From: Halorhabdus tiamatea SARL4B
Lineage (GTDB): Archaea > Halobacteriota > Halobacteria > Halobacteriales > Haloarculaceae
DNA: 64,000 nt
Assembly (NCBI RefSeq): GCF_000470655.1
Contig: NC_021921.1
Location: 1,364,001-1,428,000, forward strand
Direction of reading: 5' to 3'
The first letter of the stretch is position 1; every line of letters begins with the position of its first letter. A program made the position numbers and the translations under genes. Positions 15,704-23,450 of this stretch are shown one piece after another. The notes below the pieces were generated by a model. The model made no database searches, was not told where the DNA came from, and saw nothing but the letters and a program-made list of their open reading frames with translations.

Positions 15704-16306
15704 TCACTCGTACTTCGACTCGATCTCGCGGATGACCCGCTCGTCCTCGCCGCCGTCACTGATTGCGGCCGCGTATCGCCGGTAGTCGTCTCGACTCACT
15801 TCGACGACGCGGGACTCACCCTGGCGCGTCAGGCGGAGGCGAACCGTCCCGTGGGGGTCGTTGCGGACGTGGGAGTTCGCGAGCGTGGCGAAGACGAACC
15901 ACAGCGCGAGTGCGCCGCCGAGGAAGTAGACGGCGGCAGTGGGAAACGCGAGAGAACTATCGGTTGCGGTCCAGTGGGCGGGGTAGGCGTACCAGAACAG
16001 CGCGACGCCGCCGACGGCGACGGCGGTCCCGAGGACGACCCCGAGTCGCTGGCGGCGACTCGACGGCAGCACGGCGACGACACCCAGGAACGTCCCCGGG
16101 ACACCCACGCCGGCGATCACCCCGGCGACCCGGTAGGTCGCGACCGAATTCAGTCCGAACACGTCCGCGAGCGGGGTCGTGACGAGGGCGATCGCCACGA
16201 CGACGGCGAGCGCGCCCGCGAGGAAGACGGCGATCCCGGCGTGAACCTGGCGCGGGCTCCGGTCACCCCACCGGGCATCGTCGTAGGCTTCGCCGAGACT
16301 CGGCAT
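15704..16306 (-). CDS. Four-helix haloarchaeal membrane protein of unknown function
   Basis: A 200-aa protein with a short soluble N-terminus (MPSLGEAYDDARWGDRSP), hydrophobic segments at about 25-45, 62-80, 88-106 and 122-140, and a soluble C-terminal domain (VRLRLTRQGESRVVEVSRDDYRRYAAAISDGG). No function is known to me. It lies between pcn and priL on the same strand. The ATG at 16306 is preferred over the upstream ATG because conserved-looking sequence starts there. Confidence 0.72.
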   Translation of the reverse strand: MPSLGEAYDDARWGDRSPRQVHAGIAVFLAGALAVVVAIALVTTPLADVFGLNSVATYRVAGVIAGVGVPGTFLGVVAVLPSSRRQRLGVVLGTAVAVGGVALFWYAYPAHWTATDSSLAFPTAAVYFLGGALALWFVFATLANSHVRNDPHGTVRLRLTRQGESRVVEVSRDDYRRYAAAISDGGEDERVIREIESKYE

Positions 16307-18386: not shown

Positions 18387-19772
18387 ATGGATCTGTCCCT
18401 CGCGCTATCCACGATGGGAGCGGCGAAAGCCCTGTCAGCCGAACTCGCAATCGGGATGAGATGGCTGGTTCGGTTGGACGGGGCCGCGACATCACAAGCA
18501 CTGAGTGTGGTCGTACTCGGCGGTCCGGCCCTGTTGATGGCTGGATATCTACACCGCCGCGCCGAGCGGTGGGACTGGAAGACAGTGGCGATATGGAGCG
18601 CTGGAGGGACGCTTGCAGGCGCTGGGCTGGGACTGTGGATCGTGGGCGGCGACACTGGTTCGTTCCTCGCAGTAGCACAGGCAGCTATCGGCGGTGGAGT
18701 AGCGGGCGGAGTGGCCGGCACGAAGATCAGCCAGACCAGGCAGGCCCTGGCAAGCGCCGACCGCGATCGACACCGGTGGAAAGCACTGTTCGAGCGGGCA
18801 CCAACCGCGGTCGCAGACCTGTCTATCAGCGATAACGCGTTTTCGATCGTTGCCGTGAACGACGCGTTTCGGAATCACTTCCCGATCGATGGAAACTACG
18901 AAGGACAGCAATTCAGCGCTGTCGTCGACCTCGATGACGTCGACGCGGACATCCACACCGCCGCCGAGGCAGGGACGCCAGTCACGGACGAGTTTACCAT
19001 ATCGGCGTCTGGGGACACTCACTACTACCGTCTCCGACTGACTCCGTACCAGTACGACGGGACACGCCGTGCGTTTGCGATCATCACGGACGGGACCAAT
19101 CTGAAGAGGACTGAAAAAGACCTCCAGACGGCCGTCGCCGAACTCTCCGAAAAGAACGACCGACTCGAACAGTTTGCGAGCGTCGTGAGTCACGACCTCC
19201 GGAACCCGCTGAACGTGGCAGCCGGGAATCTCGAACTCGTGGACGCTCCGGGCGACGAACAGCATCTCGAACGGGTCGCCTCTGCGCTCGATCGGATAGA
19301 GACCCTGATCGACGATCTACTCACGCTCGCTCGGGAAGGCAAATCTGTCGGCGACCTGAAACCGGTCGACCTCGATTCAGCGGCCACCCAGGCGTGGCGC
19401 TCCATCGATACGGGTGAGATGACCCTCAGTGTAGAGACTGCGACAACCATCCTGGCCGACGAAGACCGGTTCCAACAGCTGTTCGAGAATCTCTTCCGGA
19501 ACGCGCGTGAACACGCCGGGAACGATGTCGCGGTCACTGTCGGCGATCTCGCGGACGGTGACGGGTTTTTCGTTGCCGACGACGGGCCAGGCATCCCCGC
19601 CGACGAACGCGAGAGTGTCTTCGAGCCCGGGAACTCGTCGAAATCGACCGGCACTGGCCTCGGCCTCGACATCGTCCGCTCTGTCGCTCGCGGCCACGAC
19701 TGGCGTGTCGCGGTGACGGCGTCATCCCAGAGCGGCGCACGGTTCGAATTTCGGCACGTCCAGTATCCCTGA
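18387..19772 (+). CDS. Membrane PAS-type sensor histidine kinase
   Basis: A 461-aa sensor kinase. Hydrophobic segments lie at about residues 36-55, 68-87 and 93-112. A PAS-like domain (about 128-240, WKALFERAPTAVADLS to AFAIITDGT) follows, then a short coiled coil, the HisKA domain with SHDLRNPL (phospho-accepting His about 269), and an HATPase_c domain with N box NLFRNAREHA, G1 VADDGPGIP and G2 GTGLGLDIV. No response regulator is adjacent, as is usual for haloarchaeal orphan kinases. The signal is unknown. Start ATG at 18387. Confidence 0.92.
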   Translation: MDLSLALSTMGAAKALSAELAIGMRWLVRLDGAATSQALSVVVLGGPALLMAGYLHRRAERWDWKTVAIWSAGGTLAGAGLGLWIVGGDTGSFLAVAQAAIGGGVAGGVAGTKISQTRQALASADRDRHRWKALFERAPTAVADLSISDNAFSIVAVNDAFRNHFPIDGNYEGQQFSAVVDLDDVDADIHTAAEAGTPVTDEFTISASGDTHYYRLRLTPYQYDGTRRAFAIITDGTNLKRTEKDLQTAVAELSEKNDRLEQFASVVSHDLRNPLNVAAGNLELVDAPGDEQHLERVASALDRIETLIDDLLTLAREGKSVGDLKPVDLDSAATQAWRSIDTGEMTLSVETATTILADEDRFQQLFENLFRNAREHAGNDVAVTVGDLADGDGFFVADDGPGIPADERESVFEPGNSSKSTGTGLGLDIVRSVARGHDWRVAVTASSQSGARFEFRHVQYP

Positions 19773-19912
19773 CGGCTGGTGTTCCGGCGAGCGTTCCGTC
19801 ACGGCGAGGCGGGAAGGCGGTGACCCTACGTGAGTGGGACGTCCACTGACAGAAACGGTTCTCCTGCCAATCAACCGCCAGTGTCATTGATCACCGCCTT
19901 GTGCGAGGAGTC

Positions 19913-20260
19913 ATGGACGAAATCTGGGTTATCGCCGGCGGGGTGGGCCTCGTCGTCGCCATCGTGGCGGTCCTGTGGTTGGGCCGCTCGTCTGAGACGG
20001 CCGCCTCGCGGCAGGCACACGAGGCCGCCCAGAACCGGGAGCCACCGGTCGAGCTGGGCGAGAGCTACGAGTTCGGCGTCGTCGAGTTCACCGATCACCA
20101 CTCCGGCGAGCGCATCGCCGTCGGCAAGGTCGAGGGATTCGTCCTGTTCACCGAGGACGTCCCGGCAGACGTCAGCCAGGGCGAGGTCATCCGCGCGAAA
20201 GTGCTCTCGTTCAACGAGGGCCGGACCTCGGCGGACGCGACGTTCGTCGAGAAAAGCTGA
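19913..20260 (+). CDS. Membrane-anchored TRAM-like domain protein
   Basis: A 115-aa protein with one N-terminal transmembrane helix (about residues 4-24, IWVIAGGVGLVVAIVAVLWLG) and a TRAM-like beta barrel (PPVELGESYEFGVVEFTDHHSGERIAVGKVEGFVLFTEDVP..GEVIRAKVLSFNEGRTSADATFV). TRAM domains bind RNA, so a membrane-near RNA-binding role is possible but unproven. The ATG at 19913 precedes the helix directly. Confidence 0.75.
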   Translation: MDEIWVIAGGVGLVVAIVAVLWLGRSSETAASRQAHEAAQNREPPVELGESYEFGVVEFTDHHSGERIAVGKVEGFVLFTEDVPADVSQGEVIRAKVLSFNEGRTSADATFVEKS

Positions 20261-20287: not shown

Positions 20288-20488
20288 CTACCCACGAAGC
20301 GCTTTTGCGCCTTTCGAGAGGATCAGATACAGGACGGCGAACGGCAGGAGGGGCAAGAGTAGAAACAGGATCGGCAGCATGACGAGATAGCCGACCACGT
20401 TCATCTGCAGGTTGGGCCCTTCCGTCGTCAGCGGCGTGACCGTCCGGAGCGCCTCCTCGATGGCCCCGTCGTCCTCGGATGTGCTCAT
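20288..20488 (-). CDS. Small single-span membrane protein
   Basis: A 66-aa protein: acidic N-terminus (MSTSEDDGAIEEALRTVTPL), a long hydrophobic stretch at about residues 31-58 (VVGYLVMLPILFLLLPLLPFAVLYLIL) and a basic end (SKGAKALRG). No known function. It lies 94 bp downstream of the giant DUF1508-repeat gene on the same strand, so the two may be co-transcribed. The ATG at 20488 follows the usual haloarchaeal start. Confidence 0.65.
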   Translation of the reverse strand: MSTSEDDGAIEEALRTVTPLTTEGPNLQMNVVGYLVMLPILFLLLPLLPFAVLYLILSKGAKALRG

Positions 20489-20582: not shown

Positions 20583-23450
20583 TTACCAGGAGACGACGGC
20601 CTCGCCCTCTGGGGCGTGTTCCTTGACGGTGAGCATCTCCTCGCGGGCAGACTGGCGAGTGTCGTGGGCCTCGACGCTCTCGGCGATCGCCGCGCCGTTC
20701 TCGTCGATGAGCCGCCAGATCCAGCCGTCGTCGCGCTGGGCGAACTCGAAGGAGACCTCGTCGATCTCGAGGATGCTCGCCGACTCGGTCGTCTTGCGGG
20801 CCGTCTCGATCGCGTCGTCGACCGCATCGCGGCTCTCGTAGCTGCCCGCACTCACCGCCCGCACCGTCTCGTCCTCGTCGATGAGTCGCCACCGCCAGAC
20901 GCCGTCGCCGCCACCCGCCTCGCCGGCGGACTCGTCCGGGAGGTCGGCCGCGTAGGGCTCGAAGGCGAGGGTCTCGATGTCCAGCCGATCGGCGTCGCCG
21001 GCCTGAGCCTGGACCGTCTCGACGTCGTCGACGAGTCCCTCGTAGCGCTCGTAGGGCTGGGGACTCACAGCGAGGTCCGTCCGGTCGGCGTCGACGAGTC
21101 GCCACCGCCAGCCGTCTTCGCGGCGGTCGATCCAGACGACGCCGCGGCCGATGTCGAAGACGGGGGCGTCGGCCGCGTTCGAGAGGAGACGGTCGACGTC
21201 CGCCTCGGCGGCGGTCCGCGTCTCGTAGGTCCGCTCGCCGTCGGCGAGGAGGCTGCGATCCCGGTCGATGAGTCGCCAGTGATACCCGGCGTTCTGGCGA
21301 ATCTGGACCGTGACCTCCCGCATCGTGTCGATTGCGGCGTCGGCTCCTGCCTCCCGGACGTTCGCAATCGCTGTGGTCACGTCGTCGTAGGTGGGATAGT
21401 CCTCGACGGACTCGGCGAGGATCGTGCCGTCGGTGTCGACCAGCCAGAAGCCCCAGGTCTCCTCGTCGCTGGTCAACTGGAAGGTCGCGTGTTCCATCGC
21501 CCGAACGGCCGCGTCGTCGACGTGCTCGATCAGGAACTCGACGGACTCACGGGCCAGCATGCGGGAGGGATACGACCGGGCACTCTCGGCGATGAGTTTG
21601 CCCCCCTCGTCGATGAGTCGCCAGGCGTACTCGCCGCCCTCACTCAGGTATATCTCGAAGGCGGCGGTCTCGATCTCCAAGACCTCCGCGTCGGGCGCGT
21701 TCTCCTTGAGTGTGCGCATCCCTTCCATGACTTCGCTTTTGTCCTCGTAGGACTCGCCGCTGTCGGCCATCACGATGCCGTCCTCGTCGATGAGCCGCCA
21801 GCGCCACTCGCCGTCGGACTCGTACTGCTGGAAGGCAGCTTGGTCGAACTCGATGAGGTCGGCGGCCAGGGCCTGCTCGCGAACGCGGTCGGCCGCCGCC
21901 TCGGCCGACTCCCGATCGTCGAATGGGACGGTACTGTCGGCCAGGACGTCCCGTTCGGCCGAGACCAGCCGCCAGTGCCACGCCTCGCCGCCGGGATAGA
22001 CCTCGTAGTCGGCCCCCTCGAACTCGATCGTCTCGGTCGCTTCGAGGACAGACCGCGTGCGTTCGGCGCTCGCCGTGGCGTCGGCCTCGTCGATCGAGCG
22101 ACCGTGCATGGTGGCGACGATCTCGTCGGCCCGGTCACGCAGTCGCCACGTCCACCCCGCCGCGGACGCGGATTCGGCACCGGCGTCCGACCAGCCGTCC
22201 GTTTCGTAGACTTCGAACCCGGGAGACCCGTGTTCGATGACGGCGGCCTCCGAAAGGTTCTCGGCGACGACGGTCGCGGCTGTCTCGGCGTCGCCCCGCG
22301 AATCGAAGGTCGCGTCGCTCGTCACCAACGTGTCGTCCTCGCTGTCGACGACCCGAAAGCGCCAGGCATCACCGTCGCCGAACAGTTCGATCGCGACCGT
22401 CTCGACGGTCAGGACACGCGGATCGTCGACCCCCGCGACGAAGCGGTCGATACTGTCCTCGGCAGCTGACTCCTCGCCGTAGTCGTCCGGCCCCACAGCC
22501 AGCGGCCGGTGACGTTCGTCGATGAGCCGCCAGTGCCAGCGGTCGCCCTCGTCACGGGAGACGTCGTAGGCGGCCCCCTGAATCTCGAGACGGCTGGCAT
22601 CCGGCGTCTCCTCTTTCAGGAAGTTGACCGCGGACTCGATCGCGTCCCGGTCCGCGTAGGGGCCGTCGCTGGCCGCGACGATACTCCCCTCGGCCGTGAC
22701 CAGCGACCACTCCCAGACACCCTCGGCCGTCCGGTACAGCCGGAACGCCGCCGTCGTGATGTCGAGTAGCCCGGCCCCCGCTATCTTCTCGCGCACGGTC
22801 TCGACTTCCATGCGCGCGTCGGTGTCCGTCGCGACGGTCGTGGCGGCCTGGCCGATCGCGTCGCGGCGGATCGTCCGCCAGGTCCAGTCGTTGGTCGGCG
22901 TCTCGTAGATCGTGAAGAATGCGTCCCGGGTGGCGTCACCCACGAGTATCGGTGCTTCCTCGGATCCGAGTCCCAGCTCGGGTTCGACCAGCAGCCCCTT
23001 CTCCCCGGTGACGATCGGAACGAGGATCGCGACGGCGACGAGGATCCCGATGCCCAGCGTGTACAGCGCGATGATTTCGGCGCTGTAGGACGGCCCGACC
23101 GTCCAGGCACCCGGATAGACTTGCGTGAAGGCGAAGATACTGAGGAAGGCGATCGCGAGGCCGAGCACGCTCGCCTGGGTGCCACGCCGGCGGACCGGCA
23201 GGAGCACGACGACGGCAAACAGCCCGAGTGCCAGCCCGATCGCCGAAAGCACGATCGCGATCTCCCGCACCTCGAAATTCCCCGGGAAGAAGAGTTGCTC
23301 GATCTGGAAGACGAACACACCGAGCAGTCCCGTGACACTCCCGAGAAGCAACAACCAATACCCGTAGACGTCACGTTTCGACTCCGGTTCCCCGATGTAC
23401 CGGTGGTACAGTTCGACGAGTTTCTGGTCTCGAATGTCCCCGATTGCCAT
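20583..23450 (-). CDS. Membrane protein with about 13 tandem DUF1508/YegP-like repeats
   Basis: A 955-aa protein. Residues about 25-160 hold four hydrophobic segments (YGYWLLLLGSVTGLLGVFVF; EIAIVLSAIGLALGLFAVVVLLPV; SVLGLAIAFLSIFAFTQVYP; IIALYTLGIGILVAVAILVPIV). The remaining about 780 residues are a tandem array of about 58-residue units. Each has an aromatic-rich core of the type W-x-WRLID, a strand ending in A-x-S and a helix, matching DUF1508 (YegP fold). I count 13 units, some degenerate. Small one- or two-unit YegP proteins are known; this size and membrane anchoring are unusual. Function unknown. The ATG at 23450 has an AT-rich TATA-like TAAATAAATA at 23479-23488. Confidence 0.8.
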   Translation of the reverse strand: MAIGDIRDQKLVELYHRYIGEPESKRDVYGYWLLLLGSVTGLLGVFVFQIEQLFFPGNFEVREIAIVLSAIGLALGLFAVVVLLPVRRRGTQASVLGLAIAFLSIFAFTQVYPGAWTVGPSYSAEIIALYTLGIGILVAVAILVPIVTGEKGLLVEPELGLGSEEAPILVGDATRDAFFTIYETPTNDWTWRTIRRDAIGQAATTVATDTDARMEVETVREKIAGAGLLDITTAAFRLYRTAEGVWEWSLVTAEGSIVAASDGPYADRDAIESAVNFLKEETPDASRLEIQGAAYDVSRDEGDRWHWRLIDERHRPLAVGPDDYGEESAAEDSIDRFVAGVDDPRVLTVETVAIELFGDGDAWRFRVVDSEDDTLVTSDATFDSRGDAETAATVVAENLSEAAVIEHGSPGFEVYETDGWSDAGAESASAAGWTWRLRDRADEIVATMHGRSIDEADATASAERTRSVLEATETIEFEGADYEVYPGGEAWHWRLVSAERDVLADSTVPFDDRESAEAAADRVREQALAADLIEFDQAAFQQYESDGEWRWRLIDEDGIVMADSGESYEDKSEVMEGMRTLKENAPDAEVLEIETAAFEIYLSEGGEYAWRLIDEGGKLIAESARSYPSRMLARESVEFLIEHVDDAAVRAMEHATFQLTSDEETWGFWLVDTDGTILAESVEDYPTYDDVTTAIANVREAGADAAIDTMREVTVQIRQNAGYHWRLIDRDRSLLADGERTYETRTAAEADVDRLLSNAADAPVFDIGRGVVWIDRREDGWRWRLVDADRTDLAVSPQPYERYEGLVDDVETVQAQAGDADRLDIETLAFEPYAADLPDESAGEAGGGDGVWRWRLIDEDETVRAVSAGSYESRDAVDDAIETARKTTESASILEIDEVSFEFAQRDDGWIWRLIDENGAAIAESVEAHDTRQSAREEMLTVKEHAPEGEAVVSW

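Follow-up and report, generated by a model that had tools for sequence, protein, structure and literature searches.

Why would a haloarchaeon string many copies of the DUF1508/YegP domain onto a single membrane protein? The domain is widespread and its structures have been solved, and no function for DUF1508, YegP/UPF0339, HVO_2922 or DUF7139 was found in the open-licence papers searched. The gene considered here lies on the minus strand at 20583..23450 of a 64,000-nucleotide stretch of Halorhabdus tiamatea SARL4B DNA (the window). Both of its domains and the annotation "DUF1508 domain-containing protein" are already known; no prior description of a fixed 13-unit build, of position-specific units or of anchor exchange was found in open-licence papers. 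In an array of 13 units whose middle one is conserved, the copies and surfaces kept by selection can be read off, and a single array gene in culturable haloarchaea is a tractable handle on the role of the YegP fold.

Anatomy of the array protein

The frame 23450..20583 on the minus strand has no internal stop and encodes a product of 955 amino acids; its start codon is common to the window and to two related loci (L039 and L040). Pfam places DUF7139 (PF23600) at residues 10-150 (128 bits against a cut-off of 30), which agrees with the four-helix membrane anchor of the original prediction. DUF1508 (PF07411) scores 237.9 bits in total against a cut-off of 22, with nine stretches significant individually. 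The NCBIfam model HVO_2922 (NF041908) matches ten stretches, with a summed score of 239.3 against a cut-off of 90. That equivalog is a small one-unit protein (its profile has 54 positions), and the array protein, with 955 residues and a membrane domain, falls outside it. Judged by sequence, the name HVO_2922 suits the domain and not the whole 13-unit membrane protein.

A unit profile, iterated and seeded with the genome's own one-unit protein, found 13 units in the array protein. A control profile built from 26 units, all from outside the 13-unit family, recovered every one of them at 9.1 to 51.6 bits, the lowest scores belonging to unit 5 (9.1) and unit 1 (9.4); 500 residue shuffles of the array peaked at 6.8. 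The tryptophan-to-tryptophan period has a median of 57-59 residues. The array had been predicted to hold about 13 tandem DUF1508 units of some 58 residues; the profiles aligned all of them and set the number at exactly 13.

On the minus strand, and read from the N terminus, the DUF7139 membrane domain occupies 23001..23423; its helices also appear in a low-confidence full-length model. It is followed by a conserved strand-like stretch (residues 167-172, 22935..22952; G171 in 64 of 64 homologues), possibly an N-terminal cap. As delimited by the unit profiles, the array then runs through unit 1 (residues 179-230, 22761..22916), unit 2 (236-289, 22584..22745), unit 3 (295-348, 22407..22568), unit 4 (354-406, 22233..22391), unit 5 (about 411-476, 22023..22220), unit 6 (482-534, 21849..22007), the central unit 7 (540-592, 21675..21833), unit 8 (598-651, 21498..21659), unit 9 (657-709, 21324..21482), unit 10 (714-766, 21153..21311), unit 11 (772-824, 20979..21137), unit 12 (about 829-895, 20766..20966) and unit 13 (901-953, 20592..20750), directly after which the protein terminates. 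Units 5 and 12 carry a hairpin insertion and their first strands were positioned by eye; unit 5 is the weakest match.

Other labels were considered. SPOR (PF05036) reached 18.3 bits in Pfam, under its cut-off of 21; the Roadblock, transposase and DUF2231 labels, all under cut-off, were rejected; and the anti-phage defence models of PADLOC-DB 2.0.0 gave no family at E<=1. Separately, one DUF1508 unit is matched by positions 344-401 of the 431 in the NCBIfam tryptophan--tRNA ligase model NF008923 (PRK12284; E 3.5e-6), so that some of these ligases seem to bear a DUF1508 tail.

Unit number and unit identity across haloarchaea

At E<=1e-40, 106 of the order's 392 genomes, spread over 37 of 90 genera, have a match to the array protein. 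Read from the match table, 21 of the 146 genomes of the window's family hold a near-complete match and two more a remnant; within the genus, the array is present in three of seven genomes. DUF7139 occurs in 280 of the 292 genomes of the class. A DUF1508 search of 196 genomes of the phylum matched 54 at 1e-6, and the 18 matching genomes outside the order had a single match, apart from one that had two. Within that archaeal sample, many-unit arrays are thus a haloarchaeal feature. The earlier statement that DUF1508 proteins normally have one or two units holds for the sampled archaea outside the order and fails in the window's own family, where DUF7139 proteins with five units are common.

Gain and loss of units is frequent in repeat arrays. 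Here, a first survey gave 13 units in all 21 intact homologues, and among further loci an open reading frame with 13 units was present at 45 of 46, the remaining one being frame-broken. These further loci included 20 places picked from the E<=1e-40 matches, 18 of them for genus spread and two (L131 and L132) for oddness; order-wide matches were counted only where retrieved as loci. Excluded from the counts were L040 (11 units, the contig ending within the gene), L132 (frame-broken, with reading frames of 9 and 5 units that share one unit), L030/L082 (one reading frame with five units, corresponding to units 9-13) and L031/L083 (remnants). The last two cases are two species of one genus, in which the array gene has been cut down or left as a remnant and is therefore losable. 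From the patchy distribution and the broken gene in this genus it follows that the array gene is dispensable.

The same number is found on another anchor. NMAG_RS19800 (WP_004216175.1, locus L133), on plasmid pNMAG02 of Natrialba magadii, is likewise annotated "DUF1508 domain-containing protein" and has 13 units, but its anchor differs from that of the window protein: the N-terminal profile finds no DUF7139 match, and one or two N-terminal hydrophobic segments are seen by eye. L131 also has a 13-unit array in which other hydrophobic segments replace the DUF7139 anchor. In the tree the two stand together (support 1.0) within the sequences of family f3, their exact place there being weakly supported. 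The expectation that repeat number might vary among relatives was not realised in any intact gene counted, the plasmid copy included. Conservation was analysed on 64 proteins (at 70% identity, about 26 effective sequences), leaving aside L131, with its different N terminus, and L087, apparently the same genome as L039. A number that stays at 13 through this set indicates that the precise size of the structure is important, and the fixed count suggests a device of set length, not a loose string of identical sites.

The units are position-specific and not equivalent. In comparisons between species (12 representatives), same-position units were on average 36-65% identical and different-position units 22-40%, and of 5460 comparisons 3619 had the same-position unit as best match, against some 420 expected by chance. 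Conservation is highest in unit 7 (65% same-position identity; 3.09 bits versus 1.75-2.63 for the others) and next highest in unit 13. Unit 7 also has near-zero tolerance for insertions, lying 58-61 residues from the unit 6 tryptophan, and was the closest array unit to the five-unit family profiles in three of five cases. The W-x-W core is retained in most units. No odd-even pattern of similarity was found among the 13 units. A build by duplicated blocks (5+5+3 or 6+1+6, for example) was also considered; offset 5 is slightly raised, and with a best-offset permutation value of 0.227 we make no such claim.

In the tree, the array of the window's genus groups with those of families f12 and f10 (L009-L011, L039, L088 and L089 taken together) and not with the other genera of its own family, which suggests transfer or an old duplication. 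Adjacent genes differ among genera, and no conserved neighbour that would name a partner was found. Guilt by association was therefore rejected: LeuS adjoins the array in no genome beyond that of the window and those of two close relatives, and in one genus a neighbouring gene is, by eye, that of a coenzyme A pathway enzyme. After the array gene of the window lies a gene for a small membrane protein of 66 amino acids (20288-20488, minus strand), 91-92% identical and in the same place in two relatives. On the opposite, plus strand the array is adjoined by genes named by eye as histidine-kinase-like (18387-19772) and short TRAM-like (19901-20260). Viral contigs, searched with one DNA pattern, and phage records, searched by tblastn, gave no array match; PHROGs contains matching families of unknown function.

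Junctions, fold models and membrane side

Junction lengths were taken only where the next unit aligned from its start. Each of the 12 junctions of the 13-unit array measures five residues (range 4-7; n = 5-64 per junction). Successive tryptophans can be pushed apart by insertions of as many as 45 or so residues, mostly where a unit's profile match starts past the first strand, that is, in the first hairpin.

The five-unit DUF7139-DUF1508 family, one member of which is encoded in the same genome (L007), offers a comparison. A single intact reading frame with five units was found in 17 of 20 regions. Junctions 2-3 and 4-5 are five residues long in 22 of 22 sequences, junction 1-2 measures 22-34 residues and junction 3-4 from -3 to 1. 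In genus g15 a split at a pair boundary, after unit 3, divides the gene into a three-unit membrane reading frame and a two-unit one (L153 and L032); in a third locus of this genus, L154, the split is less clear and the second reading frame has one unit. The paired junction pattern together with this split indicates that five residues seem to mark a coupled kind of junction. By its sequence, the 13-unit array seems to have only junctions of this coupled type.

A full-length AlphaFold2 model from three sequences was poor (pLDDT 48.9, pTM 0.20) and gave, on structure comparison, one partial YegP match (Z 5.8). A model of units 6-8 from nine sequences was better (mean pLDDT 73.8, pTM 0.52). Its residues 58-179, comprising units 7 and 8, superpose as one piece on E. 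coli YegP (2k8e; Z 15.7, 113 residues, 2.1 A) and on Shewanella SO3888 (2k49; Z 15.2, 110 residues, 1.9 A). The three modelled units are thus predicted to have the YegP fold. Unit 6 is detached in this model and the inter-unit stretches have pLDDT under 50; the model therefore suits pairs of units as well as a continuous rod.

The side of the membrane was judged from lysines and arginines in the aligned homologues. At least two are present in the loop between DUF7139 helices 2 and 3 in 59 of 64 homologues and in the N-terminal tail in 62 of 64; the two outer loops have as many in only 3 and 5 of 64, respectively. This is a positive-inside pattern with both termini in, by which the array should be cytoplasmic. 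Of the long scaffold, cytoplasmic or external, that had been proposed earlier, the long membrane-tethered array stands and the charge bias indicates the cytoplasmic side; a scaffold role we infer.

Possible architectures and comparison with known systems

The reading that we tentatively favour, at somewhat less than an even chance, is a membrane-tethered cytoplasmic rod or superhelix of exactly 13 units that would be rigid and would serve as a scaffold or spacer of fixed geometry. The DUF7139 helices would anchor one end of the array in the membrane, and a fixed five-residue junction would link each unit to the next. We propose that, with such junctions, the array could act as a single body of set length and twist. 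Its faces would present differing, position-specific surfaces, with the central unit 7, nearest to the canonical YegP sequence, as the putative main docking site, and the array may thereby keep some cytoplasmic partner at a defined spacing from the membrane. Against this reading stand the patchy occurrence and dispensability of the gene, the three-unit model, which suits pairs equally well, and the finding of no conserved neighbour that would name a partner. A broader version appears possible but doubtful: near-constant five-residue junctions would couple the 13 YegP units from first to last, giving a molecular ruler or a ring, either closed or of strictly defined length, at the cytoplasmic face. 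If this were true, the count would have been kept across an archaeal order despite a swap of anchor, in a domain otherwise found in ones and twos.

YegP pairs swap strands, and one can suppose that the units form obligate pairs. The leftover unit would then find its mate in trans, either in another copy of the array or in the genome's small one-unit protein, and the array would be a dimerisation or recruitment platform. The fixed counts of 13 and 5 are both odd, the five-unit family has the paired junctions and the gene split after unit 3, units 7 and 8 form a pair in the model, and the HVO_2922 structure contains two chains. Two odd numbers are, however, no statistic, and the 13-unit junctions are all alike and lack an accompanying odd-even pattern of similarity; we regard obligate pairing as unlikely. 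Self-closure of 13 strand-linked units into a ring or toroid would set the number by itself and would agree with a fixed count on two kinds of anchor, with a protein that stops directly past the final strand of unit 13, and with the high conservation of that unit. Yet the strand-like stretch that carries G171 could cap unit 1 instead, and closure is seen in neither the poor full-length model nor the three-unit model, which makes a ring in itself quite improbable.

In a stress-linked tether, the ligand of the DUF1508 units would be a nucleic acid or a stress-related molecule, which the array would attach to the membrane; in our estimation this has a comparably low probability. HVO_2922, the one-unit relative in H. 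volcanii, is listed among perchlorate-induced genes and grouped with DNA repair (PMC12175516), and yegP comes after the DNA-damage regulators capK-capS in 57 instances (PMC13373217). The window also contains a second, short DUF7139 gene of about 200 amino acids (15704-16306, minus strand) between the genes for the sliding clamp PCNA and the primase large subunit PriL, an order kept in six of six loci from two genera (L047-L052). The array gene itself is without such neighbours outside the window's clade, and the composition of the array (D+E 23%, K+R 9%), though usual in haloarchaea, is that of an unlikely nucleic-acid binder. As to the many equivalent binding sites of the original prediction, a string of independent beads all binding one ligand would fit the W-x-W core kept in most units. 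It is contradicted by the fixed count and junctions, by the position-specific identities and by the uneven conservation that peaks at unit 7. We rejected an array of equivalent sites on the latter two grounds and consider the string of beads very improbable.

The favoured rod or superhelix can be set beside several known proteins. All3315, a baseplate protein of the Anabaena contractile injection system (7b5h chain AD), has a weak fold likeness to the array model over two units (Z 7.5; Foldseek E 1.5e-4), where a Z under 8 can reflect a common arrangement; the sequence match is not significant (E 2.2), and no injection-system link was found near the array gene in the compared neighbourhoods. 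Another contractile injection system baseplate protein, Algo12 (7aeb/9wsz), contains a weak YegP-like stretch by sequence (E 0.04). The five-unit haloarchaeal proteins share with the array the membrane domain family, the unit family and a fixed count, but their units are near canonical and much alike, their junctions follow the paired pattern, and a long charged stretch, coiled coil-like by eye, precedes unit 1. YegP (2k8e) and SO3888 (2k49), 17-18% identical to the model, have two units in 116-118 residues and no membrane anchor. Finally, HVO_2922 of Haloferax volcanii (6q2z), which we take to be a homodimer, has the same domain as the array (6.3e-10 by sequence, Z 8.4); it is a soluble protein of one unit and 60 residues, whereas in the array a membrane domain carries 13 diverged units.
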